Source: a virus. Taken from it: a stretch of DNA of 64,000 nt. Positions 3,001-59,241 of this stretch are shown in pieces. The stretch lies in IMG/VR virus record IMGVR_UViG_3300042879_003877, positions 38,003 to 102,002 of that record. One strand, given 5' to 3'. A program made the position numbers and the translations under genes. Position 1 is the first letter of the stretch, and every line of letters begins with the position of its first letter. The notes under the pieces were generated by a model. That model did no database searches, was not told the DNA's origin, and worked only from the letters and a program-made list of their open reading frames with translations.

Positions 3001-6000
3001 ATTTATGATAAATCATCTACTTTCCCTATTGATAGAATTACTGAAAAATTTTCTAGAACTGAAAAATATTCTACACAAGACATTGATAAAATATATAATA
3101 ATTATATTTTAGGATTAAATCAGATGGCTATAGATTCTCTATCTTTAGTAGAAGAATATAATAAAGACGTTATAAATGTAAATAAATTAAGAATTGCTGT
3201 TCAGAATAATTTAAAACCTATTATTGGTATAACTCCAGGGGTTCAGGATGGTCGTGTATCTAAAGTAAAATATGAAAAATTATCAGAAGATTATAGTATT
3301 CATATTCCAACTTTAGAAACTGCTATTGAGACTAAATATCATGAATTAAAGTTAGGAACTGTTTATGCTTATCAAAATGGGAAATACACTAAGACTTTAA
3401 GAAGGAAGTTTAATAAAAACGAAGCTCAAGTTTTAGCTAATTTAATTAAAAAAAGTTTATCAGGAGAGATTCTTGAAACTTCTGAAGAATTATATTTAAA
3501 AAGTGTATTAAATTGGTTTGATAATTTAACAACACCAACAGCATATAATAAAAATTCTGTTGGAATAGTAAATGGTCAATTTATAGCTGCTCCTTATTTT
3601 GGAAATAATAATAATCCTAAGTTAGGATTTACGTGGTCTATAGATGATTCTATGGATCGTTTAGTAGAATTTTTTTCATCTCATTATCCACATATTAATA
3701 AAACAAAATTAAATACTGCATATCAATATTTTCAAGATAAAGAAACTGATACAATATATGAAAATTATGAAGAATATTTAATAGAGAGAGAAATTATAAC
3801 AATTCCAACTCCTGTAAATGATAGATTACCTGTTAAAAGTAATAGACAATTAATATTTGATCCTCAGTTTGGATTTGATAACATTCAAACTAATGATGAG
3901 AAAAATATATATAGAACAAGTAAAATTAAATTGATTAAAGATAATTTTACAGATCCTATGTCTATACAACATTTCTTTACAAACGATTTAAAGAAAACAA
4001 CTCCATCAGAAGAAAAGAATGGGAATAAAATATATTATTTTAATAATATATATCTATCTATAGTAGGTCCTAATGATATATTATTAGCAGGTAATGTAAG
4101 TAAATATTTTGATAATGATATATGGAATAATACTTCTATAAATGCAGCTCAAGTTACTAAAGATGAATTTGATCAAGATGTAATACCTTATGGTATTAAA
4201 TTTAATTTAATGGTTACTATTGATAGTAATGATGAAGTTACTATTAATATTGAAAAATTAAAGAAAAACGAATCAACTGAAGAATCTGAAGATCCTGGTA
4301 CTGATGAAGTTAAAAATGAAAGAGAATCTCCTGAAGAAACTCCTGAAGCTCAAAAAGAAACTTCTGAAAATGAAGAAGATGAGTTTTATGAAGATAGTGA
4401 TGAGGGCATAGATGAGGAACCTCCATTTAGATTATTTACAGATAGTACAGATATAGAAAATATAGAAGAGTTCAAAGTATGGTTATCTGAAATATTACCT
4501 CAATTTTCTGTTCAAGTTAGTTCTGATGCTATTAAAGGTGTAGCTCAAGGAGCTTTGATTGGTAGTTTTATTACTTTATGGAAAAACGCAGGATCTGGTA
4601 CAGGATATCATGAAGCTTTTGAAGCTGTGTGGGGTTATTTTATTGATAGTGATACTAAAGAAAAATTAATAAAAGAATTCAAATCTAAAGAAGGTACTTA
4701 TAAAAATCCTTTTAATAAAAAAACAGTTAAATATTCTGAAAGTACTGATAATGATGTCAAAGAGATGTTAGCTGAAGGATTTATTGATTTCATGAAAAAT
4801 CGTAAATTACAACCAAAAGCACCTATTCAAAATAACTTCTTTTTAAAATTATTAGATTTATTAAAACGTTTATTTAGTAATATTAGTAAGATTTTTAAAA
4901 AATCTGAAAAAGAAGCTATTGATAATATTAATGATATATATGAAAAAATAGCATCTGGAAATTATTCTCAAGAAGTAATTAGTGATTTTAATTTAGGAAT
5001 TCAGTTTAGACAACGTTTTGCAGCAGAAGATATAGATTTAAATCATGTACATTTATTTAATTCTATGCTTTATGATAGAGTTATGTCTTTATTAGGTTTT
5101 TCTAATATTTATGATATTATTGATAATAATATTGAAAATGATGTTACGACATCAGAATTAATAGGAAAACATATTATAGAACAAGGAAATGCATTATTAA
5201 CAGAACTTCAATCTGAGTTCAAAACTAAAAAAATTAAAGGTTTTTCCTTTTTTGATGACAATTTTGAATTTAAAAATGATTCCTTAAGAAAAGAGTTATT
5301 AGAAAACGCTACTCAAGTCTTTTTACAAAAAAGTAAATTAGATTCTTTTGTAAGTATTGATAGTTTAGATGAAATGGAAGTATCTTCAAAAGAAGGTATA
5401 GTTCCTACAAATGAAATAAATCCAACTTCTAATGTAAATAATGTTACTCGATTTCTTTTAAATAATTTAAAATATTATACTGCTAATGAAGCAGGTGTTT
5501 TACAACCTGCTGTTGTAAATACTTATTTTGGGAAAACAAGGGATATAACATTAACTATTAATAAAAAACCTGATTTTACTACTATTCAAACATTCTTATT
5601 AAATAAGCTAGCTAATGTAGTTCCTTATTATAAAGATGGTCAAGAAGTAGCATTATTTGATGCTATGATGGAAAAGCTATCTCTTTATGAAAATAAAGAA
5701 ACTTGGATTAAAGATTTAAAATATAAATTAGGAATAGGATATAGTTCATTAAGTGATAATATTATCAAAATGAGATTAGCTTTTGTAACATCATTTAAAA
5801 ATGCTGAATATGAACCGATTGTGTTACGTAGTTCTGATAATGTTGTATATATGGAAAATCCTGTATATGAAAGTTCTCAAACAGCATTACTTGAAAGTTG
5901 GATAAGTAATGTACAAGATAAAGCTTCTTTAAGTTCTTCAGTTAATATTACTTTAAATAAAGATTTAAATAAAGGACAGGTTATTTTTCCAAAAAAAGGT

Positions 6001-9000
6001 TTAACAAATAAGTATGAACAAAGAGACTATTTTAAAGATATTTTAGGTATTGATATTGGTGATCCAAAAGAAGATGAAATAATACAAGCTCTTGATACTA
6101 TTTTAAGTATTATAAAATTTAGACAAGTTGTTATATTTGATGATTTAGTAAAAGATTACGCTCAATCAAGTTTTAGAACATTATCAAAATATATAGCATC
6201 AAAAGAATCAAGTTCTTCTAAATCTTATAAAAATTCAGATGGTAAAGCTGAATTTTCAATCATTAATCCTACTTTTATTTCTGACATTATTAATGTATAT
6301 AATTCTGTAGATAATTATAATGATTTTTTATTGTCTTATCCTCATTTTCATAATAACTTTGAATTAAAGCTAGGATTAAAAAATAATTATTTCCTTAAAA
6401 AAGGAGGATTTTTATTTGATAAAAATGGACTTAAATATAAAAATTCAAAGATTACTTTAAAATTATTAAGTGGAATCCAAGATAAAACTAATGTTAAAGG
6501 GTTTTCTTTTTCTAAAATGTCTTTAGAAGATAAATTAGTTTTTAAAGCAGTTGCAGCTTTATCAGGTAATTATTCATTATTAATGAATTCTGATAAGAAT
6601 ATGGAAAATTCTTTATCATTTAATGATAAATATTTACTAAAATCTTTAGATTTAAATCCTTCTTTCTTTTCTAAAGACTATAATTCAAGTTCTTCTTTAA
6701 ATACAGAAGCTGTTAAAATCATAGAAAATTATTTCTTACCTCAACTTAAAGATGAGATTGACTTACTGTTTTCAAAAGATGCTTTAAACGTTCAATTTTT
6801 AAAAGATAAAATAAAAAATAAAGAACTTGGTTATTATCAAGATATTGTAAACTTTTCAAAAGAAGATTTTGAAAAGATTGCAAATGATTATAATTCAACT
6901 CAATCAGGATTATATTCTTATTTACAATCTGCTATACCTTCTATCTATGTATATTTAAGAAATCAAATTGAAAATGATTATCAGAATTTATATAAAGCAG
7001 GATTCTTTAAGAATATTGATGGTAGAGTATTAATATCTCGACAAATATTAAATTCTAAAGAAATTGAATTTATGAACCAGGGTTTAAACGCATATTTAGA
7101 TTTTAAAGGTATAAAAGGAAAAGAACGAGAAAAGTATATTCAAAGAATTACTGGTAAAAATCAAAATACTAGTATAGCTAGTGGAAGATTAGCTAGTTTT
7201 TTCTTTAAAAAGATTGATGAAATATATATGATCTATGCTCAAGCTGGATATAAAGATGTTACTGCATCTAATTTAGAACATATATTTAGAAAAATAGCTA
7301 TTCAAGTTACTGTAAATTACGAGATATATAATAAAGACATACAAGGATTTTTATATGGACCATTTAGTGCTTATAAAAAAGGAGATTTTGGTAAACGAGC
7401 AGGTTTCTTAGCTAGTTCTAAGCAAAGTCAAGATAATTCAATTACAATTAATAATCATTTAAATTTAACATCTAAAAGATTAGATGGAAAAAACAGAGAT
7501 GGTTTATTATCTTTTGTCTCTTATAAAGATCCTATTGTCGTATCAGCAAGAATAACTTCTATTGCTGAAGATTTCTATAAAGTATTAAAAAATGATAAAC
7601 ATAGTCATGATACTATTGAAAGACTTGTAGGAGCTAAATTTAAGAAAGATGGAACATTAAAAGAAATCACAGCTGAACCAGGTACATTATTAGCTCCTTA
7701 TGAAGAATTAAAACTAGCAGATGCCCAAGCTTATATAATGTTAGATACATTTCATGATTTATTATATAAATCAGGAAAATTAACTAGATCTCAAAAAGTA
7801 CATATCCAATATGAAATGGCTTTAGAAAGAATAGAAAGATCTGAATTACCAAAAACTGATCCTGCTTATAGACCTTTAACAGCAAAGCAAAAAGTTAAAG
7901 ATTTAGAATTTATAAACAATCCTCAAATTAAAAAAGAGGCTAATTCTGCTGTATTACAAGTTTTAAAACCTCAAGGATCTGGTTTTAATCAAAATAATTT
8001 AGATGTAGCTATTCCTATATTTTTAAAAAACTCAGTAGTTCCATTATCTTGGTCTCGTGTTAAAAATAATCCTATTTTACGAGATAAGTATATTACTTGG
8101 CAAAAAAATCAAATTGATTTAATTGGTTTTGAATCTGGTCAAAAAATAGGAGCTATTTTAAAAGATGGTAATTCTACTCCATTATATAATATTGATGGAT
8201 TTAATGCTGAAATTCCTTTTATTCAAAAAATGAAATTTAATGATTTTGGTATTCAACAAGAAACTCCAAATGAATTTAAGAATTCTGTAAATAGAGGAGT
8301 ACAAATTACTAAACTTATTGTAGGTAATTTATCTCATCATTTTAAAAATAAACCACATATTAAAGAATTAGTAGATGAATATTATGCAAACTTAAATGAA
8401 CTTTATCAAAGAGGTTATGATAGTTTAATGAAGAAATTAGGTTTAAAATTAGAAGGAAATTATTACGTAACAGATAATTTATCAAATCTAGTAGAAACTT
8501 TATCTGAACAAGCAAAATTATTAAAATTACCAATTAATGTTAAAGACATGTTTGTTGTAGATAGTTCTACTGGGAAATTACCTTATAAATTTGATGCTTC
8601 TACAGAACGTCATAGAATAGAATATATATTGAATTCTATTTTAGATAGAACATTAATTCATCAAAAAGTTAAAGGAACTCAAGCTCCTCAGATATCTTCT
8701 GTATTTGAACAGTCTAATTTAAAACCATTATTTAAACGTAAAGGTATTTGGACTGAATATACTCAAGGAATGAAATTATCCGCAGATGAAGAAAAATCTA
8801 TAAGATATTCATCTACAGATTTAAAAATATTAGAAGATGGAACAATTGAAGTAAAAATACCTTCATATTTAAAAGGTTTAGTAAATCTCAATACTTCTAA
8901 AATAGATCCAGAATTATTAGAATTAATAGGATATCGTATTCCTACTCAGTCATTCGGACAAGTAGAAAAAATTAAAATTGTAGGATTTTTAGATCAATCT

Positions 9001-12000
9001 TATGGTGATGCTATTATTGTTCCAGCTGAATTAGTCGGTAAATCTGGATCGGATTTTGATATAGATAAATTAAATTTATATTTCCCACATTATTATAAAG
9101 ATAAGCAAGGAAACTATAGATATATTTCGTATTCTACATCTGATGAAGAATTAGGTTTACGATATAATAATTATATTAAATCAAATGAAGAGAAAGTTTA
9201 TAGAAAATTAAAACAATGGATATTTGATGCTATTAAAGACATGGCTTCAGATTTAAATATTAATTTAAATAAAGAAGATTTATCTAAGTTTTTTACTAAA
9301 AAAACATTTAGACAATTACCTAATATTATCAAAGAAGAGTATTTTGATTTACAAGAAACTCTTCAAAATAGTGAAAGTAAAATATTAGAAAAAACAATAG
9401 CTCATATTCAAAAAACTTCAGAATTAATTTCTGAATATGAAGAAGCTTTAGCTAATAAAGAAGAAATTGAATATGAAGATAAAGATGGAAATATAGTTAT
9501 ATCACCATTTGATGTATTACCTTTATTATATACATTACAAACTGAATATGATACTTTATTAAATGCAGCTGGTTACAATAAAGATCAGATTGAGTTAATT
9601 CGTGAAAAATTAAAAGAATTTAACGAGTATAAAACAGAGTTATTAACACAAGATCTTCCAAATATTCCAAATGAGATAGCTATAACATATGGTTATATGT
9701 CTATTGATGATTTTTCTAAACTTCCTATTTTAAAACAAAATAGTCTAGAAGCTTTAGAAAATAGAAATATAGAATTAATGAAACGACTTATTTCATTACC
9801 TGAAAATAGACTTCAGCACTTAGCTCCTAATTCTGCTTCTACTATTGAAGCTATGGATAAAATTATTAATTCTTCAGAAGTTAAAAAGAAATCTTATCAT
9901 CTTTCAACGTTTTATGGTTCTACAGAGTTTAGAAATATCATGGTAAGTGCTAAGAATCTTGTTGGTGCAGGTGCTCTTCATATTACAGGACATCAAATAA
10001 CTCAAATGTTTAATGTATCCTTTTCAGATGAAGATACTTTTAAACACATTCCGTTTATTAAATCTAATAGATTAGATAAAGTATATGATAGTAAAGGAAG
10101 ATTAATCTCTTCAAATCTATCAGAATTTTTATCAGCTTTTGTGGATGCTGCTAAAGATCCTTTTGCTGTAAGATTAAATTTAAATAATTCTACTATTAAT
10201 GTAGCTTTAATGTTAATTCGATTAGGTGTATCTATTGAAGAAGTATTATATTTTATTAATCAACCTTCAATTAAGAGATATGTAGCAAGATATAATAATG
10301 TTAGTTCCTTATTAAGGAAATCTTCTAATGAATCCCAGAATAGAGCTATGGCAGAAGCTTATGTATTATGGGAATCTAATAGAGGAATGTATGGAAAAGA
10401 TAGTTTAAAACATTTAAGAATACCATTTAATGCAGAAAAAATTAATACTCAAGATGAATTAGATCTTTATTCAGCTGAAGAAAAGAAAACAGAATATATT
10501 TCTTTAACAGATAAAACTATAGAGACTATATTTAATTATGGTACGTTTGAAGAGATAAATAGAATATCTTACATGATTAAGAAAAGTGTAGCTCTTCCTA
10601 ATATATCTACTTCTGAAGGGAGTGAAAATTATCTTAAAAATTTAGAAAAATCACTAACAGGAAATATATCTAATGAAATAAAACATGAAACAGATATTTA
10701 TTCATTAGGATTATTTATGAGTTTATTAAAACCTGCCCAAGAATTATCTACTTTAAATACGGCAATTAATATAGAGTCAAAGAAAACCAAAACTCTTATT
10801 GAAAATAGAAGTTTACTAAATACTGTAGATAGTTTATTAAGAAGATTATCCCCTCCATTTACTAATTTAGATGCTATATTTAGTCAAAGTCACTTATCAA
10901 CTGTATATAGAAATAGGCAGGATTTTGATAAATATTTAGCACCATATTTAATGGTTGCGGATCCTACTTTTTCTAATTTGTTAGATAGTATTGCTACTCA
11001 GGGTTATATATCATTAGCATATGGTCAAGCTAAAAACGATTTAGTTTATAAATTTAATACATTTTTATTATCTTATTTAGTTCAAAATAATCCTAATTTC
11101 CGACCTACTCAAGATCATGAAACTATGTTTAAACGATTAGCTTCTCGAATAAAAGCTATTCAAACTAGTGAACATTATAAACCTTTTAAATCTCATAATT
11201 TATTTAAAAATATATCTTATACATTAAGAGGACAGTTTGGAGGAGATTTAAAGACTCAAATTAGATTATTAAAATATCAGGAAGAAGAGACAATTGATAG
11301 AGATATTGAAATTCAAAAACATGAAAATGCCTATGAATTAGCGTTATCAAGAATGAAATCTTCTAGATTACCTGCAAAAAAAGAATTCTATGAAGAATTA
11401 GTTAGTATTTATGAAGATTTAGTAGATTATAGTATATTACAATCTGGATTATCTGCTCAGTTTACATCTTTAGCAGGAATATTACCTGCTGATTTATTTG
11501 CTAAAAAAGTATCTAAATACTTAGATTTAACTAATTTAAATGTAGACTTAAGTAATTTATGGGATATATTTGTTAGGAATAATCATAGAAATCCTTTATT
11601 AGTTGACATTAAACCTGAAGTAATAAGAAATTCTAATATTATTGATTATAATGGAAATACTTATTATAGAGTATATTCAAGAGTTCCATATATTAAAAGA
11701 AATATTTCAAATTTAATAGAATCTGAAGATATATTTTCATTTGAAGAAACTGAGAAATTAGAATCTAAGTTTTTAAGAGTTCTTCCAAATGAAGAAATTA
11801 AAGGAATTGTTGAAGAGTTAGATTTACCTAAATCAACAAATTGGAAACTATATGAAGAAATAACCGCTTTAGGTGATCAACAATGGTATTTAGAAACTAA
11901 AGATATATATGATTCATTATCTTCAAGAATTCCAGGATATATTGAAGAAGATTATTCTTTACCAGAAGAAACTATAGAATCTGAAAAAATACAACTTTCT

Positions 12001-12201
12001 CAGACACAAATAGATACATATGTGTTTTATAAAGAATTATACACGAATGATGCAGATATTAGAGAATTATTCTATATATTTGCTGATAATTACGATATAT
12101 CATATAATGATATTAACAGTTTGTTAAAAACATTGATTTTAGATCACAATGATGTATTACAACCTATTATAGAAAAAACATTAATTGAAAAAGCATGTTA
12201 A
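1..12201 (+). CDS. Giant virion-associated multidomain protein with crAss-type RNA polymerase (5' end outside window)
   Basis: The frame is open from base 1, so the gene probably begins upstream; residues here are numbered from the Met codon at 37 (4054 aa). The strongest motif is DFDID at residues 3006-3010 (9052-9066), preceded by a YRIPTQSF segment. This matches the metal-binding loop of the crAss-like phage virion RNA polymerase (phi14:2 gp66 type, distantly related to YonO and two-barrel polymerases), which is injected and transcribes early genes. The N-terminal ~900 residues are modular: VVSTDAKADIERI and PISTTQS linkers each occur twice, and an acidic GDPDNDN linker follows. A GTGYHEAFEAVW segment at residue 1525 resembles a zincin helix but has Glu where the second His is expected. 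At more than 4000 aa it is about twice the length of gp66, so other activities are likely fused to it. The stop codon overlaps the ferritin start. The polymerase call is firm; the functions of the remaining regions are unknown. Confidence 0.9.
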   Translation, partial: DNKVHKLPITVDMYSVFRSALVQDDLNTMVSEIDEKLNDIKSELLADPQYSQDYLNPNNTSEDVLDIAKKENNNPLYLQYQVLENLKKQVSDSLQKENKAFEELTDVKKLIEKAQKSEKAINSEIENPAKSEDLPKPKPVTVTESSQEPEDNPEEKVEPVVSTDAKADIERIEIPRYFTFNELGGGKGKSGKAMSSVEADRNQEIEENFKKQLKEGDKLIEPNGTITYFKNGKVVKADGSPYGMADIPAFINGVTIERTKVVSTDAKADIERIRQENDSLGKSILQKLGYKNENRLPNGNVKGGQSGWKIRFNIKSPTGGNYFNTDNKTVKNDKHYNEQAQKLVDWLNSYFGTKSKGSVSEAIKGYTLFGFTDEHPSSIWKFLSGGEQGESDFTIYIGSADDVLKFVEDVKKSPIADLLVAGNQGSDVNITPDGIFKARIEGSKIGFSGYGAPIDLNVVTGEENFTFVFDGRRVNINYGKTKGPSDISITVEGGNSEGINWNYKVVGDDNLKKDFPELYKNIRNIIGFQLYGDYLQGSNNEFLKLTGVDKINAKYDAELKELEQKPISTTQSGSSPALRDVEQFNRAKEGSLKRIKNSNDPQTIFSEINRLQETLKKSQSFVLTPEEQTLIDEKLKELKDKGYSLKTKKGEILREGDKVRVDDNVTLLKASDVTEVEKSLLGKELNRRNSLKQELIKNGYSEQEATIEAGLSPEEKIDIVSQDIEVAVIKNGVQEKSGKVAIRVISIEAVESLLSNEQPISTTQSDIESKTKEELFPIDSLHKGKESGDILKVIGYIKDGVKFEIQTKGTLKPKKNLIISELKRLIIEGKLAALEQPTNGDPALGGESAQRPPIQGPVEYGDPDNDNSSLEEEDYRADASRTPLSQTTIFKTYGADFRNGKIQLNNIAKSYFYDQILDLKKDHFFLPIPVSSELALSIVKDKEGDFYKDYKANPTDLIYLLVGIDNDNNPIVYNLPTGKTIPEQIPLIDILSNKTIPTGLIYDKSSTFPIDRITEKFSRTEKYSTQDIDKIYNNYILGLNQMAIDSLSLVEEYNKDVINVNKLRIAVQNNLKPIIGITPGVQDGRVSKVKYEKLSEDYSIHIPTLETAIETKYHELKLGTVYAYQNGKYTKTLRRKFNKNEAQVLANLIKKSLSGEILETSEELYLKSVLNWFDNLTTPTAYNKNSVGIVNGQFIAAPYFGNNNNPKLGFTWSIDDSMDRLVEFFSSHYPHINKTKLNTAYQYFQDKETDTIYENYEEYLIEREIITIPTPVNDRLPVKSNRQLIFDPQFGFDNIQTNDEKNIYRTSKIKLIKDNFTDPMSIQHFFTNDLKKTTPSEEKNGNKIYYFNNIYLSIVGPNDILLAGNVSKYFDNDIWNNTSINAAQVTKDEFDQDVIPYGIKFNLMVTIDSNDEVTINIEKLKKNESTEESEDPGTDEVKNERESPEETPEAQKETSENEEDEFYEDSDEGIDEEPPFRLFTDSTDIENIEEFKVWLSEILPQFSVQVSSDAIKGVAQGALIGSFITLWKNAGSGTGYHEAFEAVWGYFIDSDTKEKLIKEFKSKEGTYKNPFNKKTVKYSESTDNDVKEMLAEGFIDFMKNRKLQPKAPIQNNFFLKLLDLLKRLFSNISKIFKKSEKEAIDNINDIYEKIASGNYSQEVISDFNLGIQFRQRFAAEDIDLNHVHLFNSMLYDRVMSLLGFSNIYDIIDNNIENDVTTSELIGKHIIEQGNALLTELQSEFKTKKIKGFSFFDDNFEFKNDSLRKELLENATQVFLQKSKLDSFVSIDSLDEMEVSSKEGIVPTNEINPTSNVNNVTRFLLNNLKYYTANEAGVLQPAVVNTYFGKTRDITLTINKKPDFTTIQTFLLNKLANVVPYYKDGQEVALFDAMMEKLSLYENKETWIKDLKYKLGIGYSSLSDNIIKMRLAFVTSFKNAEYEPIVLRSSDNVVYMENPVYESSQTALLESWISNVQDKASLSSSVNITLNKDLNKGQVIFPKKGLTNKYEQRDYFKDILGIDIGDPKEDEIIQALDTILSIIKFRQVVIFDDLVKDYAQSSFRTLSKYIASKESSSSKSYKNSDGKAEFSIINPTFISDIINVYNSVDNYNDFLLSYPHFHNNFELKLGLKNNYFLKKGGFLFDKNGLKYKNSKITLKLLSGIQDKTNVKGFSFSKMSLEDKLVFKAVAALSGNYSLLMNSDKNMENSLSFNDKYLLKSLDLNPSFFSKDYNSSSSLNTEAVKIIENYFLPQLKDEIDLLFSKDALNVQFLKDKIKNKELGYYQDIVNFSKEDFEKIANDYNSTQSGLYSYLQSAIPSIYVYLRNQIENDYQNLYKAGFFKNIDGRVLISRQILNSKEIEFMNQGLNAYLDFKGIKGKEREKYIQRITGKNQNTSIASGRLASFFFKKIDEIYMIYAQAGYKDVTASNLEHIFRKIAIQVTVNYEIYNKDIQGFLYGPFSAYKKGDFGKRAGFLASSKQSQDNSITINNHLNLTSKRLDGKNRDGLLSFVSYKDPIVVSARITSIAEDFYKVLKNDKHSHDTIERLVGAKFKKDGTLKEITAEPGTLLAPYEELKLADAQAYIMLDTFHDLLYKSGKLTRSQKVHIQYEMALERIERSELPKTDPAYRPLTAKQKVKDLEFINNPQIKKEANSAVLQVLKPQGSGFNQNNLDVAIPIFLKNSVVPLSWSRVKNNPILRDKYITWQKNQIDLIGFESGQKIGAILKDGNSTPLYNIDGFNAEIPFIQKMKFNDFGIQQETPNEFKNSVNRGVQITKLIVGNLSHHFKNKPHIKELVDEYYANLNELYQRGYDSLMKKLGLKLEGNYYVTDNLSNLVETLSEQAKLLKLPINVKDMFVVDSSTGKLPYKFDASTERHRIEYILNSILDRTLIHQKVKGTQAPQISSVFEQSNLKPLFKRKGIWTEYTQGMKLSADEEKSIRYSSTDLKILEDGTIEVKIPSYLKGLVNLNTSKIDPELLELIGYRIPTQSFGQVEKIKIVGFLDQSYGDAIIVPAELVGKSGSDFDIDKLNLYFPHYYKDKQGNYRYISYSTSDEELGLRYNNYIKSNEEKVYRKLKQWIFDAIKDMASDLNINLNKEDLSKFFTKKTFRQLPNIIKEEYFDLQETLQNSESKILEKTIAHIQKTSELISEYEEALANKEEIEYEDKDGNIVISPFDVLPLLYTLQTEYDTLLNAAGYNKDQIELIREKLKEFNEYKTELLTQDLPNIPNEIAITYGYMSIDDFSKLPILKQNSLEALENRNIELMKRLISLPENRLQHLAPNSASTIEAMDKIINSSEVKKKSYHLSTFYGSTEFRNIMVSAKNLVGAGALHITGHQITQMFNVSFSDEDTFKHIPFIKSNRLDKVYDSKGRLISSNLSEFLSAFVDAAKDPFAVRLNLNNSTINVALMLIRLGVSIEEVLYFINQPSIKRYVARYNNVSSLLRKSSNESQNRAMAEAYVLWESNRGMYGKDSLKHLRIPFNAEKINTQDELDLYSAEEKKTEYISLTDKTIETIFNYGTFEEINRISYMIKKSVALPNISTSEGSENYLKNLEKSLTGNISNEIKHETDIYSLGLFMSLLKPAQELSTLNTAINIESKKTKTLIENRSLLNTVDSLLRRLSPPFTNLDAIFSQSHLSTVYRNRQDFDKYLAPYLMVADPTFSNLLDSIATQGYISLAYGQAKNDLVYKFNTFLLSYLVQNNPNFRPTQDHETMFKRLASRIKAIQTSEHYKPFKSHNLFKNISYTLRGQFGGDLKTQIRLLKYQEEETIDRDIEIQKHENAYELALSRMKSSRLPAKKEFYEELVSIYEDLVDYSILQSGLSAQFTSLAGILPADLFAKKVSKYLDLTNLNVDLSNLWDIFVRNNHRNPLLVDIKPEVIRNSNIIDYNGNTYYRVYSRVPYIKRNISNLIESEDIFSFEETEKLESKFLRVLPNEEIKGIVEELDLPKSTNWKLYEEITALGDQQWYLETKDIYDSLSSRIPGYIEEDYSLPEETIESEKIQLSQTQIDTYVFYKELYTNDADIRELFYIFADNYDISYNDINSLLKTLILDHNDVLQPIIEKTLIEKAC
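478..819 (+). repeat. Pair of 39-bp perfect direct repeats (478-516 and 781-819) inside the giant gene
   Basis: The same 39 bases, encoding VVSTDAKADIERI, occur at 478-516 and 781-819. The copies are 303 bp apart, exactly 101 codons, so recombination between them would delete or add a module in frame. The segment between them is Gly/Lys-rich and unlike its flanks. Confidence 0.9.
1695..2294 (+). repeat. Pair of 21-bp direct repeats (1695-1715 and 2274-2294) inside the giant gene
   Basis: The 21-base string encoding PISTTQS is repeated 579 bp apart (193 codons, in frame). It brackets a charged, helical segment. Together with the 39-bp pair it marks the N-terminal part of the giant protein as a set of linker-separated cassettes. 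Confidence 0.85.
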
Positions 12202-34602: not shown

Positions 34603-36528
34603 TTATTTTATTGGACAAGATCCATTATCACAATCTTGTAATTCAAATGAGTTATCATCTAAATTAACATTTGTAATAGGAGTTATCAACTTAATTTCTT
34701 TTTCATATGTTTCTTTAGAAATTGTTTCATAAGGAGCTTGAAGAAAACCATGACCTTGTTGTAATAAGAATGATACTGTTTTTATTTCTGAGTTAAAATA
34801 TTTGTATAAATATTCTTTTAATTCAGGAAGTTCTTCTTTATTATAATAAACTGTACAACTTACAGAATTATCACTCCATTCTGCTTGAAGTCTTCTAACC
34901 ATATCTAATTGTTCTTTAAATGAGAAATTAGATGCTACAGGTGTAGTTTCTGGTACTTTACAAGGAAATGTAACAACCATTGTAGTTTTACTTTGACTAT
35001 TATCAAACTCTATAGCAGGTTCAACATGATATCCGTGTTTTCTACATAAATCAATTAAAGGAGATCCTGTAGCCATTCTTACTCTTCTATAATAATAAGG
35101 TCCAGCAGGATTAGGATGTACTCCAGGAGTTACTCCAGCTAATAAAGACAATGTTCCAGAAGGTTTAACAGTTGTTAATTTAATAGATTCAGGGAATCCA
35201 TTTAATTCAGAATATTGTTTATCATATTCTCTTAAAAATACATATGCGTCTTTTAACCAATTTCTTTGTTCTTCAGTAGCTTGTAAGATTCCTGTCATAC
35301 CAATTCCCATTCTCATATTTTTATGAACAACATCTTCTGTTTCTTTTAAAGAACATGTTAAACTTAAAGAATGTTTATTTACTCGATATGTATAAGTTAA
35401 AACATCAAATAATTCTTCTTTAGATGTTATATTAGGTAAATAAACTTCACTTAAACAACAAGTCTCAAAATTATTTAATCCTTGTTCACCACATGGATTA
35501 AATCCTTCTACATTTGGATCTGGATATTTTGTTTCTCCAGTTCTACCACAAGAACGTGCTAAATCCAAATTTATCAATCCATAAGGTTCTCCTTGCTCAT
35601 ATGTATCCCAAAACTCTTGAGGTAATAATTTTAAGTTTGAAGGAGTATAAATAGAATTATTACTCATACTTCTCCAATTAGGTATTGGTCCTAAATCCCA
35701 ACGTTTAGCTGTTAAAAATTCTATATCATCAAAATCACCAATAGCAATTTCTGCACTTCTTCTAACATTACCACTTACAACAATATATCCTATGATATTC
35801 ATAATATCAAGACAATCTATAGGTCTTAATTTTTTATTACTACGATTATTTAATATTTTATGAATTTCATTTATTCCCCAACATAAATCTTCTGGTCCAG
35901 AAGAAGTACCACCAAAACCTTTTATAGGAGCACCTTTACCCCTCACACATATAGTAGAATAAGAAAAACTCTCACCTGAGTAAAAATGAGCTTTTAATAC
36001 TTTTCCTAAAAGTTTAACCCATCCTTCTCGTGTATCAGGAACAATAAAATCAGCATCTTTAGTATCTTTTCTTTCAATTTTAATTTTATTCTTTAATTTA
36101 GGTAATTGATATACATTTTCTTTTTGAATGTTAAAACCAACCCCTGAACCTAACATTAACATTTCAAATGCCCAAGTAAATGGTCTAATAGGTTGATTTA
36201 CAGTTACATAAGAACAATTTTGTAAGCTAGGTAAACCTAATTTATCAACAGTTTTGGTTCCTAATTGCCACATAAATCTACCTGCTGTACTAAATTTAAG
36301 TCCTAATCTATATCTTGCGTATTGTTCTTCTTCTTGAGGCGTAAATTTAATTTTTAATTGTTTTTTACAAGCATCAAGTTCTCTTTCAATGACTTGAAAG
36401 AATTCTTCAGTCTTTGAATTAGGATCATCTTCTTTTAATTTTCTAGCATATGTTCTTTTAAAAACAACGTAACCTATCTCTCCAAAAGGAGTTATAACCT
36501 CCTTTGATAATTTTTCTATATCTACCAT
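34603..36528 (-). CDS. nrdJ: Adenosylcobalamin-dependent (class II) ribonucleoside-triphosphate reductase
   Basis: This 641-aa protein converts ribonucleotides to deoxyribonucleotides. NPCGEQ contains the active-site C346 and E348, and C-terminal C633/C638 (CDNGSC) are the redox pair that re-reduces the enzyme. The FMWQLGT, GSGVGFN, VRRSAEI and MRMGIGMTG segments match the monomeric B12-dependent RTPR branch. No class I small subunit or class III activase lies nearby, which fits an enzyme that needs only cobalamin. It is shorter than the ~740-aa bacterial enzyme, as in other phages. The phage would depend on host or environmental B12. Confidence 0.9.
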   Translation of the reverse strand: MVDIEKLSKEVITPFGEIGYVVFKRTYARKLKEDDPNSKTEEFFQVIERELDACKKQLKIKFTPQEEEQYARYRLGLKFSTAGRFMWQLGTKTVDKLGLPSLQNCSYVTVNQPIRPFTWAFEMLMLGSGVGFNIQKENVYQLPKLKNKIKIERKDTKDADFIVPDTREGWVKLLGKVLKAHFYSGESFSYSTICVRGKGAPIKGFGGTSSGPEDLCWGINEIHKILNNRSNKKLRPIDCLDIMNIIGYIVVSGNVRRSAEIAIGDFDDIEFLTAKRWDLGPIPNWRSMSNNSIYTPSNLKLLPQEFWDTYEQGEPYGLINLDLARSCGRTGETKYPDPNVEGFNPCGEQGLNNFETCCLSEVYLPNITSKEELFDVLTYTYRVNKHSLSLTCSLKETEDVVHKNMRMGIGMTGILQATEEQRNWLKDAYVFLREYDKQYSELNGFPESIKLTTVKPSGTLSLLAGVTPGVHPNPAGPYYYRRVRMATGSPLIDLCRKHGYHVEPAIEFDNSQSKTTMVVTFPCKVPETTPVASNFSFKEQLDMVRRLQAEWSDNSVSCTVYYNKEELPELKEYLYKYFNSEIKTVSFLLQQGHGFLQAPYETISKETYEKEIKLITPITNVNLDDNSFELQDCDNGSCPIK

Positions 36529-38519: not shown

Positions 38520-38656
38520 AATTCTTTAATTCTTTTAATTAATGCAGTTTTACTTAAATTTAATCCTTCTTCTTTTAAATATTTTTTAATATTCCAAAAA
38601 TTTAAAGTTCCAATTCTTAATAATCTGTCTATTTTTTCATTTAAATAATCTTTCAT
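38504..38656 (-). CDS. Small ORF, 50 aa, possible helix-turn-helix
   Basis: MKDYLNEKIDRLL...KYLKEEGLNLSKTALIKRIKEL reads as a basic, helical, HTH-like peptide. Its ATG overlaps the stop of the upstream receiver-like gene as ATGA, a classic coupling signal. It may bind DNA, but no family is assigned. Confidence 0.55.
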   Translation of the reverse strand: MKDYLNEKIDRLLRIGTLNFWNIKKYLKEEGLNLSKTALIKRIKELWKNC

Positions 38657-39045
38657 TTAAAAACATTTATAATATTTTGAGTCCCAACAGGATTCATACT
38701 ATGAACAAACATTGTTGGTAATACTAAATTATTCTCTTTATATATTTCTTTTGTAAATAAAGCACAATCTAAACCTGTTTTTTCTTTAAAGTCTTCATAT
38801 CCTATAATATCATTTCCATTACCTTGATGTTTATGATAATCTAACATATGTTCATCTGCTAAATCATGATCAAAAGAAATGACTTCTATTTCCTGAAAAT
38901 GGTTTTTTAAAACATCACAAAATTCATCATAATTTCTAACAATAACCCAATCATCTTCATAAAACTTTGCTAAATGTCCTATTCTTCTATGCATATAATC
39001 TATGCAACCTTTAGGATACCTAATATCATCTAAAAATAATTTCAT
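38653..39045 (-). CDS. Cyclic-phosphate-processing receiver-like protein (cREC type)
   Basis: The protein starts at MKLFLDDIRYP (ATG at 39045, overlapping the upstream stop as TAATG); an earlier in-frame ATG at 39093 lies inside the upstream gene and is less likely. The ~130-aa domain has LDD near the N-terminus, ISFDHDL in the centre and FVHSMNPVGTQNI near the end. This matches the receiver-like family proposed to process cyclic phosphate ends of RNA in repair or conflict systems. The biochemical role of the family is a published prediction, not proven here. It sits near a metallophosphoesterase. Confidence 0.7.
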   Translation of the reverse strand: MKLFLDDIRYPKGCIDYMHRRIGHLAKFYEDDWVIVRNYDEFCDVLKNHFQEIEVISFDHDLADEHMLDYHKHQGNGNDIIGYEDFKEKTGLDCALFTKEIYKENNLVLPTMFVHSMNPVGTQNIINVFK

Positions 39046-39455
39046 TATGTTAATTCTTTTTGATTTGTACTTATTTTCTGACCAAAAAACCAAGGACTAA
39101 TATATACTTCAGTTGTAATCTCTCCATCTGAGTTTAAATAATCATCTACATATGTAGCAGGTTGTTGTTCAAAACCTTCTCCTATACCATCAGACCATTG
39201 CCCTTGTGTATATTCTTCTAATGTTAGCAATTCTTCTTCTGTTAATTTACAATTACAATCATAGACTGTTAATGTATATAATTTTCCATTTTCATAACTA
39301 AAACTCATATAACCTGAGTCTATTTTATCTTTAAATGTAAATTCATCATCAAAATAGTCTGTAAAATCTTCTTCACATTGTATTCCATGTAATTCTACTA
39401 AATGAGGGTAATCACATTTAGCCTCTCCTTTTATTATTACGGTTGTATTTTTCAT
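39045..39455 (-). CDS. Conserved unknown protein
   Basis: This 136-aa acidic protein has beta strands, then LTEEELLTLEEYTQGQWSDG and a GEGFEQQPA motif, then EVYISPWFFGQK. The central segment looks like a conserved phage family, but no function is known to me. It is the first gene of a transcript that includes the receiver-like gene, with a putative promoter box at 39477. Confidence 0.6.
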   Translation of the reverse strand: MKNTTVIIKGEAKCDYPHLVELHGIQCEEDFTDYFDDEFTFKDKIDSGYMSFSYENGKLYTLTVYDCNCKLTEEELLTLEEYTQGQWSDGIGEGFEQQPATYVDDYLNSDGEITTEVYISPWFFGQKISTNQKELT

Positions 39456-49387: not shown

Positions 49388-50629
49388 CTAATCATAATTA
49401 AATGAGATATAAGAACCTCCTGTATCTTCACATAATGCTTTTAATTGATCATTTGCTTGTGATATAGTTATAGCATTAGTTTTCCAGTTAACACTAGTTT
49501 TTACAGAATCATTCCCATCATTAACTATTAATATTTCAGGACGTTCATGAGAAAGATCTACATTTAAATTATATAGTTTTTTATTATTTACTATTTCCTT
49601 TTCAATAGAATTAATAACGTGTCCGACCTGAGTATCTCCTCCACCAGGATTAAAATTAAATGTTTTCCAAAATTCTAATGCGGATTGTTCATCATAAATA
49701 TGTGTAAATTTATAGGATTTTATAGTTCCTTCAGTTAAAAACATACTTATAAATACTTCACATTCTTTAATCATAGCATATTGTAATCTATTAGCTACAA
49801 TAGCATAAACCCATTCTTTTTTAAAATTCTCATTCATTGAACCGCTGTCGTCAATGAGGATAATAATCTTTTGTTTTTTAGTTTCAGGTTTAACAGGAAC
49901 ATTAGTAATTAACGTTTTCTGAGCTAATCTAATATCATAATCAGGCAACATTCTTTGATATAATGGACTTCTCATAATATCTTCAAAATGGGTTAATCGT
50001 TTCTGTTTAGTTTTAGGAGCATTTTGTACTCTTTTATCTGTAACTTTCTTTTTAACTTCAAAAGATTTACCAAAACTTTCTACTTTAGCTATACGTCTAA
50101 GAAAATCCACATTTTGTTTAAAAGTATTAATATCTTTTCTATTTTCTTTTAATTTTTGTAAATTAGGGTTTTCCCATTCTCCTTTTCCTGGTAGATTATC
50201 TCTCATTTCTTGCATGAAATCATCTTGAGTAGAAGGTTCTGCTCCTTCCATAAAACTTTCTGGATCTTGTTGACCAGCTATTTCTTTCATATATTGCAAT
50301 AAAAAGAGAGCTTTATCTATGAATGTATAACCTGGAATATATTCATTATATAAACCTTCATAAAAATTTGTTTTTTTAGCTAATTTTTCTTGTTGTTGCT
50401 CATTAAATTTACTCATGTCTTTAAAACTATCATCAATATAGTCTTTATTCCACATCATTTGATGAGAAAAAAATCTAGTTAGTTCCTGAAAAAATTCAGG
50501 TCTAACATAATTCATCTTATTATTTTGTAAGATAGAAGTACTATACCCCAAAGTAGGAGTATAGTACCATTCATTATCTTTAATAAATAAGGGTTTTTCT
50601 GTTTTTTCCTTAAAATTAAACCAATTCAT
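49388..50629 (-). CDS. von Willebrand factor A (VWA) domain protein, partner of MoxR-like ATPase
   Basis: This 413-aa protein has a helical, Lys/Glu-rich N-terminal region and a C-terminal VWA domain. MIDAS residues are D260-x-S262-x-S264 in DDSGSMN, then GGDTQ and IVNDGND. Its stop/start contact with the MoxR-like ATPase (1-bp overlap) reproduces the common MoxR-VWA gene pair, in which the ATPase remodels or inserts metal into a target complex through the VWA protein. The target in a phage is unknown. The organisation also resembles the CoxD/CoxE and GvpN/RavA-ViaA pairs. Confidence 0.82.
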   Translation of the reverse strand: MNWFNFKEKTEKPLFIKDNEWYYTPTLGYSTSILQNNKMNYVRPEFFQELTRFFSHQMMWNKDYIDDSFKDMSKFNEQQQEKLAKKTNFYEGLYNEYIPGYTFIDKALFLLQYMKEIAGQQDPESFMEGAEPSTQDDFMQEMRDNLPGKGEWENPNLQKLKENRKDINTFKQNVDFLRRIAKVESFGKSFEVKKKVTDKRVQNAPKTKQKRLTHFEDIMRSPLYQRMLPDYDIRLAQKTLITNVPVKPETKKQKIIILIDDSGSMNENFKKEWVYAIVANRLQYAMIKECEVFISMFLTEGTIKSYKFTHIYDEQSALEFWKTFNFNPGGGDTQVGHVINSIEKEIVNNKKLYNLNVDLSHERPEILIVNDGNDSVKTSVNWKTNAITISQANDQLKALCEDTGGSYISFNYD

Positions 50630-51807
50630 TATTTTTTATTTAATTGATCGAGTCCTGTTAATTTTTGCAACTCATTCATATTTTTCTCTAAAATTTGATT
50701 CCATTTCTCATCTAACATTGTTACTTTCTTCATTAATTCATCATCAGTTTTAGTTTTAGATAACTCTTCTTTAGATCTTTTAATTGTTTGTAACGCTTCT
50801 TTAAATACTGGTAAATTAATAGTTTGGAATCCACCAGAAAAATCAATAGTATTAATTTGTTTAATAGCCTCATCAACTTTATCTGTTAATTCATCAATTC
50901 GAGCTACAGATTTATATTTTTTAATACTTTCTTGAACTACAGATTTTGCTCTTTCAGAAGTAAATTCTGCAACATAAGACATATAATCTGTTCCTGCTTC
51001 TTCCATTCCTAATAATACTTTTACAGCAGTTCTTGGTGAAACAATAAGTTTATCTTTAGCCAATTCTCCTAAAATATATGCTAAAGTTTTATTACTTTTT
51101 CCAAAACATTCTTTAAACATATGAGAATAATTTTCTGCATTATAAGCAGGCCATTCTACTTTAACTTCCATTACAAAACGTTCCATTAAAGCTTTTAAAG
51201 ATGCATTATCTGTAGCAAAATCTGCACGAGATTTATTAGTACAAATTACAATCATTTTAGTCTTTAAAGGATGACGTTGTGTACCATTTCTAAATTCTTT
51301 AGAAGTCAATATATCTTTTAATGCTTCTAAAACAAAATCTGGAGCATCTAAAGCTTCTTCAAATACTACATATTCTTCATTCATAAATGAATTTTCAATT
51401 AAATATTCAATAGCTCCTGGTTTTTTTATATAAATAGGTTGAACATCATTAATATCTAATCCTGCTTCTAAAGCAGCTTTTTTAGCTTCTGCTGTAGCTT
51501 TATGATCAATAATACCATGACTAAATAAACCTAAATCTACACCACCTAATAGAGCATCAATAGTAGTACCACTACCTAAAGATTTTACATAAGGGTTAAT
51601 GCCTAAATCTTTGAAATATTTATTAACTATTTCAGATTTACCAAATCCACCCATTCCCCATAAAATAATATTTTCTCCTGATTTACGAGCTAATTCAAGT
51701 CCTTTAAATACATGATCTGCATATACAAATTTAGAAGGGACATGTTTTGTTTTAATTTCTTGTTGAATACCTTGTTCCATACTTGGGATTTCATTAATTG
51801 TTGCCAT
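50629..51807 (-). CDS. MoxR-like AAA+ ATPase
   Basis: This 392-aa protein has Walker A GMGGFGKS (G51-S58), a VVFEEALDAPD Walker B/sensor region, and a MIVICTNKSRAD segment with the sensor-1 Asn. The C-terminal ~120 residues are helical. The layout is that of MoxR-family AAA+ chaperones. It directly precedes the VWA gene, and four unknown genes upstream run in the same direction with small gaps, possibly belonging to the same system. Confidence 0.82.
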   Translation of the reverse strand: MATINEIPSMEQGIQQEIKTKHVPSKFVYADHVFKGLELARKSGENIILWGMGGFGKSEIVNKYFKDLGINPYVKSLGSGTTIDALLGGVDLGLFSHGIIDHKATAEAKKAALEAGLDINDVQPIYIKKPGAIEYLIENSFMNEEYVVFEEALDAPDFVLEALKDILTSKEFRNGTQRHPLKTKMIVICTNKSRADFATDNASLKALMERFVMEVKVEWPAYNAENYSHMFKECFGKSNKTLAYILGELAKDKLIVSPRTAVKVLLGMEEAGTDYMSYVAEFTSERAKSVVQESIKKYKSVARIDELTDKVDEAIKQINTIDFSGGFQTINLPVFKEALQTIKRSKEELSKTKTDDELMKKVTMLDEKWNQILEKNMNELQKLTGLDQLNKK

Positions 51808-56368: not shown

Positions 56369-56385
56369 ATAAATTGTATTAAAAT

Positions 56386-56416
56386 AAAAAAGAGACCTAT
56401 TGTAGATCTCTTTTTT
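56386..56416 (-). terminator. Terminator after NAD-salvage transcript
   Basis: AAAAAAGAGACCT pairs with AGATCTCTTTTTT (one mismatch, 5-nt loop); on the - strand it ends in a T-rich tract. It closes the transcript containing the 134-aa gene and probably the NAD-salvage genes. Confidence 0.8.
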
Positions 56417-56425
56417 ATTATTTGT

Positions 56426-56830
56426 TTAAACGTTAATTAATTTTAAATTTTTTATAGCGTTACTTTTACCTGGTAAATGCTCTAATTGACCTTTATATTT
56501 GTTATATAAGCTATCCATAGTACATATATATGCTAATTTACCTGAATAAAACACCCAAACAGAATTAGAGAAGATATGTTCTATTATAATTGTAAATTGT
56601 GTTGTCATAGCTGCTCCTCCTATACTTTGCCATCCACCAGAAGTATTTCCCCATGTTTGATTAACTAAATGTATATTATAGGATAACCACATTTCATATG
56701 ATATTTTTTTAAAATTGATAGCATGTTCAGGTTTAATTAAAGTATAATTCTGACAAGCATGAATATCATTAAAAATATTAATAGCTTGTAACATATCACT
56801 AATTGTAGATATATTAAATTCATTTCTCAT
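56426..56830 (-). CDS. Unknown protein downstream of NAD-salvage genes
   Basis: This 134-aa protein has a Gly/Trp-rich middle (TWGNTSGGWQSIGGAAMTTQ) and beta strands around it. It overlaps the NAMPT-type gene stop by 1 bp, so it is co-translated with the NAD+ module and could belong to it. No family is recognised. Confidence 0.5.
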   Translation of the reverse strand: MRNEFNISTISDMLQAINIFNDIHACQNYTLIKPEHAINFKKISYEMWLSYNIHLVNQTWGNTSGGWQSIGGAAMTTQFTIIIEHIFSNSVWVFYSGKLAYICTMDSLYNKYKGQLEHLPGKSNAIKNLKLINV

Positions 56831-58224
56831 TATAAATATTTATTAGCTGTATTAATAATATCTTGAAAATGAGGTCTTTGAAATACTCCATTTTCAAATA
56901 TAGTTTCTAAACAATCTTGATATCCTGCAAATTGAGGTGCGGACATTTTTCCTGCTTCTAAAGTAGTAAATCCATGTAAAGATGTTGTAGTTTTAACTCT
57001 TCCTAATTTAGAATTCTTAGTAGGATCAGATAATGGTGTTTTTTGTACATTAACAATATCATCTCCAAATCTCATTTCAGAAGGCTTCATAGCTATTCTA
57101 TGTGTATCTCTAGTTAAGTTTTTAACTAATAATCCACCACCAGAACCAGTTACTAAATTATCTGCTGACCAACCTGCTTTAGTATATTCTTTATATAAAT
57201 TAGGAACAGTTTCATCAATATCATCACCTTGAATAAATCCTACATTATGATTTATTACTTTATAGCCTTTTCTATTAATAGAATAAGTATATGCAGCAGC
57301 AACTATATCAGAATATCTAGGAATATTAATATATTTATCTCCTGTATCAGGTCTCCATATTAATCTTCCTGTTCTTGATTTTTGTTTATCAATTACTTCT
57401 GGATGACAAGCTATATTTTTAATAAAATTATCCTGATCAAATGCATCTATAACAATAGAAACGTTAGCATCAGGAGGAGCTTGATATAATTGATGTAATA
57501 CATAATCTAATTCATTATTTCTACCAAAAGACATGGCTACACTATGTTCTGTAGCCCATACAGATTTTAATCTTCCTTTATATTGATAAATATCTTTAAT
57601 TACAGCTCTTGATGCAGCAATATTATCAGAACCAGGAAAATTAATCATATGTGCAAAACCATCTATAGCAGCAGCTTCAAAACATTTATCTCCTCTAAAT
57701 CCAAAATCATTTACAGCATAATCTAAATTATTTAATGTATCTGAAGATAATTCATAATAAGGTTTGATGTTTTTTTTCATTAGAAAACTTCGTGTAGCAA
57801 CAGCAGAAGGACTCCATGTATGTTGAAATAAACCTTCAAATTGTCCTACATATGGTGCAAACCAATCTTCAGTAGCTTCACAAGTTAAATAAGCTGTCCC
57901 AGGTCTAATAATAGTACCTTCAGGTAAAGCTTTAACTCTTAATGGTAAGTATCCTAATTTCATAACTTTCTTCCATACTTCTTCATCAATTAAATTATAA
58001 CCTGCTCCTGATATAGATTCTTCAATAGCCTCATCTATCATTTCTTGTGTTACTGGATTTAAAAAATGTTCATGAATAACTACCCCTATACCAGCTACTT
58101 GCATTATAGGTTGTTTTCCTATTCTATTTTCTAAATATTCATACATACCTGTTATACCAGGTTTTAATGCTTTAGGATGACATAATTTATAAAAATCAGT
58201 ATCCAGTATTATATTCTTTCTCAT
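56830..58224 (-). CDS. nadV: Nicotinamide phosphoribosyltransferase (NAMPT/NadV)
   Basis: This 464-aa enzyme, the usual family length, makes nicotinamide mononucleotide (NMN) from nicotinamide and PRPP. Family segments are clear: DTDFYKLCHPK at the start, NDFGFRG, NFPGSDNIAA, WATEHSVAMSFGR, IWRPDTGD, FIQGDDID and TGSGGGLLVK near the end. The next gene upstream is an NMN adenylyltransferase-Nudix protein that would turn NMN into NAD+. In phages this pair forms a two-step NAD+ reconstitution route (NARP2) shown to counter NAD+-depleting defences. All major motifs appear intact. Confidence 0.93.
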   Translation of the reverse strand: MRKNIILDTDFYKLCHPKALKPGITGMYEYLENRIGKQPIMQVAGIGVVIHEHFLNPVTQEMIDEAIEESISGAGYNLIDEEVWKKVMKLGYLPLRVKALPEGTIIRPGTAYLTCEATEDWFAPYVGQFEGLFQHTWSPSAVATRSFLMKKNIKPYYELSSDTLNNLDYAVNDFGFRGDKCFEAAAIDGFAHMINFPGSDNIAASRAVIKDIYQYKGRLKSVWATEHSVAMSFGRNNELDYVLHQLYQAPPDANVSIVIDAFDQDNFIKNIACHPEVIDKQKSRTGRLIWRPDTGDKYINIPRYSDIVAAAYTYSINRKGYKVINHNVGFIQGDDIDETVPNLYKEYTKAGWSADNLVTGSGGGLLVKNLTRDTHRIAMKPSEMRFGDDIVNVQKTPLSDPTKNSKLGRVKTTTSLHGFTTLEAGKMSAPQFAGYQDCLETIFENGVFQRPHFQDIINTANKYL

Positions 58225-58252
58225 ATTGTGTTAATTTTTGATTAAATTTTTT

Positions 58253-59134
58253 TTATTTTAATAATTTTAAAAAATGTTTATGATTATCTCCTAAGATATA
58301 ATATGCATCTTTAATAGAAAAGAATTCTAATCTTTCTAAATCATCTCCAGCAATTAAATCACCAGATACATATTCTGCTTGATATAAATGAGTTAATACA
58401 GAATCTTTAGAATTTATATATCTTCTATCAGCTATAACTACATCTTGGATATATTGTAATTTTTTATATTTGATATGAGGACATTCTTCTGATAATTCTC
58501 TTTTAATGGCTCCTTCTGAAGTTTCATAAAGGTCTATAAATCCTCCAGGAATACACCATTTTTGGGTATTATTTTTAAGACCTAATAATATTTGTTTTCC
58601 AAATAACCATGATTTTCTAATAATCATACAATCAACTGTAGAATAAACTATAGGAAATCTTGTATTTTGAGCATATATCATTCCTTTTAAGAAATCTTCA
58701 GATATTACTGGTTTTACATTACTTCTTAAAAATGAAGAAGATAAATATGATTTATTTTCAATATATTTTGATTTATATTTTCCATAATCTTGATATGTAT
58801 TTAAAAACGAGTCTCTACTACCATATAATTTAATATAATCAGTTGATTCTGTATTTATTGTTATTAATTCATCTAATTTGATAGTCCATACAAAATCATC
58901 TAATGGACAATCAGGTAATATTAAATATGATATATTATCATTATTTAATTGTTGTTCTATACTTTGTTTTATTAATTCTGCTGGAATTGGATTTCTATCT
59001 TCTAAATTAGATAAACTTTGTCCAATAATAATAATAACTCTATCATTTTCTTCTACTACTTCATTAATAAGATGATGATAACCATCATGTAATTTGTAAT
59101 TCTGAAATCGTCCTACGATTACACCTACATTCAT
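58253..59134 (-). CDS. nadM: Bifunctional NMN adenylyltransferase / Nudix hydrolase (NadM-like)
   Basis: The N-terminal ~150 residues are a nucleotidyltransferase: GVIVGRFQ (8-11 core), then KLHDGYHHLI, RNPIPAELIK and a YLSSSFLRS loop. This would adenylylate NMN to NAD+. The usual (H/T)xGH signature reads HDGY, with Tyr in place of the last His and two His right after, so activity needs checking. Residues ~160-290 are a Nudix domain with GGFIDLYE...RELSEE, a nearly complete Nudix box, which may hydrolyse ADP-ribose or NAD-related products. Together with the NAMPT gene 28 bp downstream it forms an NAD+ salvage operon. Confidence 0.87.
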   Translation of the reverse strand: MNVGVIVGRFQNYKLHDGYHHLINEVVEENDRVIIIIGQSLSNLEDRNPIPAELIKQSIEQQLNNDNISYLILPDCPLDDFVWTIKLDELITINTESTDYIKLYGSRDSFLNTYQDYGKYKSKYIENKSYLSSSFLRSNVKPVISEDFLKGMIYAQNTRFPIVYSTVDCMIIRKSWLFGKQILLGLKNNTQKWCIPGGFIDLYETSEGAIKRELSEECPHIKYKKLQYIQDVVIADRRYINSKDSVLTHLYQAEYVSGDLIAGDDLERLEFFSIKDAYYILGDNHKHFLKLLK

Positions 59135-59173
59135 AATTTTTAAGGTTTTTATTTAATGTTTGTTTTTAAAAAG

Positions 59174-59241
59174 GGGTTATAATAGGATTCGAACCTACAT
59201 CCGATTATTAATAATCATAATACCAATTATACTATATAACC
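59174..59241 (-). tRNA. tRNA-like gene with noncanonical anticodon arm
   Basis: On the - strand GGTTATA (acceptor 5') pairs with TATAACC (acceptor 3'), and one more G-C pair (59242/59174) is possible. The T arm is textbook: GTAGG-TTCGAAT-CCTAT. A D arm with ATTGGT is present. The element is only 68 nt, about 4 nt short. The anticodon hairpin TGATT-ATTAAT-AATCG has a 6-nt loop instead of 7, so the anticodon cannot be assigned (UAA by one reading). It lies between the NAD-salvage genes and the 76-aa gene. It is either a compact, altered tRNA or a decaying one. Confidence 0.65.

Follow-up and report, generated by a model that had tools for sequence, protein, structure and literature searches.

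The window analyzed here, a stretch of 64,000 nucleotides corresponding to bases 38003–102002 of the 102,002-base record of an uncultured virus, contains three consecutive genes on its minus strand (table 1). Read 5' to 3', they encode a fusion of a NadM-like NMN adenylyltransferase (NMNAT) with a Nudix hydrolase, a nicotinamide phosphoribosyltransferase (NAMPT), and a protein of 134 amino acids. All three reading frames are present where the original prediction had placed them, and the overlap it reported between the 134-aa gene and the stop codon of NAMPT also exists, the two genes having one base in common (TAATG). The same prediction had recognized both enzymes and their strand correctly, but it had NAMPT followed by the fusion, which is the reverse of the order found.

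Table 1. Features of the NAD+ salvage locus, in window coordinates.
Feature	Position	Strand	Evidence
First gene, 293 aa: NadM-like NMN adenylyltransferase (residues 1–~150) and Nudix hydrolase (~160–293)	58253..59134	-	NCBIfam, Pfam, AlphaFold/PDB
nadM codon 19, TAT (Tyr), at the second-His position of the HxGH motif (HDGY)	59078..59080	-	Alignment of 68 relatives; sibling contigs
Second gene, 464 aa: NAMPT (nicotinamide phosphoribosyltransferase, NadV type)	56830..58224	-	phrog_448; PDB; conserved residues
Third gene: P134, 134-aa protein of an unnamed viral family, core WGSTALGFGGIGGQA	56426..56830	-	Homologues in IMG/VR
Terminator-like hairpin followed by T's, 3' of the 134-aa gene	56383..56419	-	-17.2 kcal/mol, z -7.35

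Since a stable hairpin followed by T's (z score calculated against dinucleotide shuffles) ends the run after the 134-aa gene, the three genes are probably cotranscribed as a single unit. Promoter-like matches at the locus were no more frequent than expected by chance. Just upstream of nadM lies a tRNA gene (59173–59241, minus strand; 49.9 bits against the Rfam tRNA model), which is the same in both of the sibling contigs that we found. Its anticodon loop is shortened to six bases, for which reason ARAGORN assigns it no amino acid, and it is possibly an altered or decoy tRNA. Other genes of the window include a class II (B12-dependent) ribonucleotide reductase (34603–36528, minus strand), a single open reading frame of 4054 aa in the late plus-strand region (37–12201), and a gene for a MoxR-type AAA ATPase whose neighbor weakly matches von Willebrand factor A (49388–51807, minus strand), an odd pair for a phage.

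Homology searches confirmed the identity of the two enzymes. NAMPT matches phrog_448 (E 1e-102) and the Pfam families NAPRTase and NAMPT_N, as well as solved animal NAMPT structures in the PDB (E 4e-61). When aligned to the human enzyme, it shows all of the residues F193, R196, D219, H247, R311, D313, and R392; D219 of human NAMPT is the one favoring nicotinamide over nicotinate. It departs from consensus at 7 of the 48 positions conserved in at least 90% of the family, which is inside the range of the other members, and a comparison of sibling phages, with 3 nonsynonymous against 11 synonymous changes, indicates that the gene is under purifying constraint. The nearest NAMPT found belongs to locus L140 (49% identity), with that of locus L162 also among the closest. 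In the huge phage LR745206, a NAMPT-like protein encoded after NadM-Nudix (L007:6917–8590) is 23% identical to the present one and, judging from its sequence, is a candidate for changed specificity.

The fusion matches the NCBIfam model for bifunctional NMN adenylyltransferase/Nudix enzymes (E 4e-13) and the Pfam Nudix family (E 4e-10). Its AlphaFold model has a pLDDT of 94, and the top PDB matches of this model are the NadM-Nudix enzymes 2r5w, 2qjt, and 2qjo (E 2e-18 to 7e-16). The Nudix box G-x5-E-x7-REUxEE is complete, reading GGFIDLYETSEGAIKRELSEEC at residue 197.

A profile scan of IMG/VR for the fusion returned 122 relatives, the best 80 of which were used as loci. A same-strand NAMPT was found within 71 of these 80 loci, in 52 of them at a distance of at most 400 nt, and NadM-Nudix normally lies upstream. 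The two genes also adjoin in Tunturi_5, phiN3, SCTP-2, Cp1R7A-A1, and huge phage records. Along with the family and structure matches, this distribution bears out the suggestion of a NARP2-like NAD+ salvage pair. Phage NadV with NadM(Nudix) has already been described as an NAD+ salvage system by Iyer and colleagues (PMC9503650), who found NadV in 22% of medium-sized phages, in 33% of jumbo phages, and in all of the NadM-bearing phages that they surveyed. The pair of phage KVP40 is reported to be functional (Lee, Li and Miller 2017, as cited in PMC9503650 and PMC7139368) and to suffice for salvage (PMC7139368). The present genes are thus of an already known kind (KVP40-like, NARP2-like), which is a common arrangement in phages.

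NAMPT would convert nicotinamide and PRPP into NMN, which the adenylyltransferase half of the fusion would then adenylate to NAD+, while the Nudix domain probably hydrolyzes breakdown or overflow products of NAD+, such as ADP-ribose. The likely benefit to the phage would be that NAD+ is upheld during infection, including against defenses that deplete it; such counter-defense is plausible and, by analogy, would be the likeliest advantage. In our view, the locus is probably a two-enzyme nicotinamide salvage module read in one unit with an unrelated accessory gene, that of the 134-aa protein. The pair might instead serve ordinary phage metabolism, where extra NAD+ could increase the burst or supply those phage enzymes that use it. 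Such a role would fit the wide occurrence of NadV in large phages (22–33%; PMC9503650), and a defense context is not visible. On the other hand, neither the record nor a sibling, both possibly incomplete, encodes an NAD+-dependent DNA ligase, and PMC12300627, with the study cited there, ties this pathway to rescue from NAD+ depletion. A purely metabolic role is possible, if on the doubtful side.

Turning to ADP-ribose, the genome of the phage was searched for a macrodomain and none was found. A protein with a cREC (cyclic-phosphate-processing receiver) domain is encoded away from the NAD pair (38653–39093, minus strand; E 8e-18). This domain has been linked to the breakdown of cyclic ADP-ribose signals (PMC9503650).

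The adenylyltransferase half of the fusion is unusual. It retains the GRFQ, RNP, and SSSFLR motifs, but its HxGH motif reads H-D-G-Y, so that the second, catalytic histidine is lost. The term "intact" in the original prediction is accordingly a good description of the NAMPT residues and of the Nudix box, and not clearly of the adenylyltransferase. Among 68 aligned relatives, the second HxGH position is occupied by histidine in 67 and by tyrosine in one, L140, the same relative that carries the closest NAMPT; the fusion of L162, by contrast, keeps both histidines of the motif. The codon for Tyr19 is identical in both sibling contigs, making three contigs of the clade in all; a sequencing error was considered and ruled out, given the tyrosine in these three contigs and in L140. 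Moreover, the NMNAT domain is off-consensus at 7 of 28 strongly conserved positions, against a maximum of 5 and a median of 1 in the other members (68 relatives), and the fusion forms the longest branch of all NadM rows in the NadM tree. In E. coli NadD, the matching mutation H19A leaves 0.62% of the activity (PMC1249556). Similarly, replacement of either HxGH histidine in the FAD synthetase of C. ammoniagenes (CaFADS) removed its FMNAT activity, H31 being judged the more important of the two (PMC3509593).

With the second histidine of HxGH missing in this clade, the adenylation of NMN may be slow, or the host enzyme may take part in it. It is conceivable that the NMNAT activity of the fusion has been lost or much reduced, in which case NAMPT would supply NMN, a host NMNAT would finish the synthesis, and the fusion would be kept mainly for its Nudix half, clearing ADP-ribose or related signals. 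The substituted histidine in all three clade contigs and in L140, the most deviant NMNAT domain of the set with its long branch, the preserved Nudix box, and the mutant enzymes of E. coli and C. ammoniagenes all point in this direction. Nevertheless, the domain has been neither deleted nor stripped of its other motifs, its NadM fold is predicted with confidence, and the histidines H20 and H21, immediately after Tyr19, might compensate for the loss. As the replacement is tyrosine, not alanine, and is followed by H20–H21, we regard the NMNAT activity as uncertain rather than excluded, and its loss as rather improbable. Also unlikely is a modified salvage pair in which the adenylyltransferase half would be catalytically poor or altered, with the Nudix half and NAMPT under constraint, NMN being fed to the host enzyme and ADP-ribose-type products or signals being cleared by the fusion.

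The third gene is a real one, having homologues in many viruses. Searches with the single protein sequence or with a three-row profile recovered only its near-identical siblings and one homologue in LR745206 (E 4e-15), which adjoins an exonuclease gene at ~290 kb from the NadM/NAMPT genes of that phage. The wider family emerged with a degenerate DNA pattern designed on the core that these proteins share, WGSTALGFGGIGGQA..AYT...VYFGGRFAY. This pattern matched 107 stretches of IMG/VR (loci L017–L123), all 107 of which encode a family member. Across 84,980 genomes of bacteria and archaea it matched 12 stretches, five of them family members. Since the pattern derives from the motif itself, both counts are minimum values, biased to members that keep it. 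The low number in cellular genomes (5 in 84,980) points to a predominantly viral family. Large Rhodanobacter plasmids carry it as well, and it is nearly absent from the records of cultured phages. Six residues are invariant in 71 aligned members (W60, T63, G66, G71, G72, and T76).

The members tested had no meaningful match in Pfam, PHROGs, or NCBIfam, and PADLOC gave the 134-aa protein no identity. Its predicted structure (pLDDT 85, pTM 0.80) had no fold match in the PDB or BFVD at E 0.001. The homology and structure check proposed for this protein thus provided homologues, but neither a family model nor a fold. Between sibling phages (comparison with L003:6001–6405), its gene shows five nonsynonymous and no synonymous changes, as opposed to 3 and 11 in NAMPT, and some of these changes, at residues 55, 57, and 61, lie close to the invariant W60. 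Although the numbers are small, such a pattern suggests evolution that is relaxed or diversifying.

The 134-aa gene had been put forward as a possible third component of the NAD module, and its absence from related loci had been named as evidence that would speak against this. Searches over the full length of 50 other NadM-Nudix contigs, with a model that does recover this phage's own copy, gave no member of the family, and among the 80 loci (best 80 of 122) one has it, namely the locus of its own clade. The family was found neither beside the closest NAMPT relatives, L140 and L162, nor in the NadM/NAMPT neighborhood of LR745206. Conversely, NAMPT is present anywhere in 9 of 50 family-bearing contigs, which is about the background rate (cf. 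22% of medium-sized phages; PMC9503650). In the stretches fetched, the two are never adjacent outside the clade, and L024 is the only locus beyond it that has both, ~5 kb apart. Neighbor clustering revealed no constant neighbor of the family members, and the gene after NAMPT, in the 58 loci with a clear one, belongs to numerous unrelated clusters of at most three members each. On the basis of whole-contig co-occurrence and of neighbor clustering around both NAMPT and the 134-aa family, the idea of a third component was rejected. A functional third part is very unlikely on this evidence, for even though the one-base overlap with NAMPT and the common terminator suggest coexpression and two sibling contigs have the same arrangement, the siblings are 97–100% identical and count as a single observation.

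More probably, the 134-aa gene moves independently of the NAD pair, as an accessory gene of a widespread viral family that happens to share its transcription unit. In L162, the position that the 134-aa gene occupies here, overlapping the NAMPT stop, is taken by a gene that looks macrodomain-like by eye, though not by a model (L162:7115–7654). Such a gene would suit ADP-ribose metabolism better than the 134-aa gene does.

These results place another uncultured phage among those predicted to be able to rebuild NAD+ and show the pair as a standard, co-located module of environmental phages. They also remove a false lead, that of a third NAD component, and point out a natural NMNAT variant devoid of the catalytic histidine, which is directly testable. 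The discarded third gene, in turn, exposes a nameless viral protein family, present in more than 100 environmental phage contigs, that has no model or known fold.

Among the known systems, NARP1 (Adps and Namat) resembles the present pair in purpose, and its Namat works like NAMPT, although on another phosphoribosyl donor (PMC12774641). Here, the partner enzyme is an NMNAT-Nudix fusion instead of Adps, PRPP is the expected substrate, and no Adps-like gene (ADP-ribose pyrophosphokinase) was found among the neighbors scanned. The phage NAD+ reconstitution pathway 2 (NARP2), which leads from nicotinamide through NMN to NAD+, is closer, consisting like the present pair of NAMPT and NMNAT; in the phage studied here, the catalytic histidine of the latter is lost. 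The pair of Vibrio phage KVP40 likewise combines NAMPT with a bifunctional NMNAT/Nudix fusion. Its enzymes have been tested, whereas ours are sequence predictions that differ by the HDGY motif and by the 134-aa gene of an unrelated family that follows them. Finally, the bacterial NadM-Nudix enzymes (2qjt/2r5w, of Francisella, and 2qjo) share the two-domain fold and are the best structural matches, but at ~20% identity; in the phage clade, the loop from GRFQ to HxGH is two residues longer, and the present fusion carries Tyr19 at the end of that motif.
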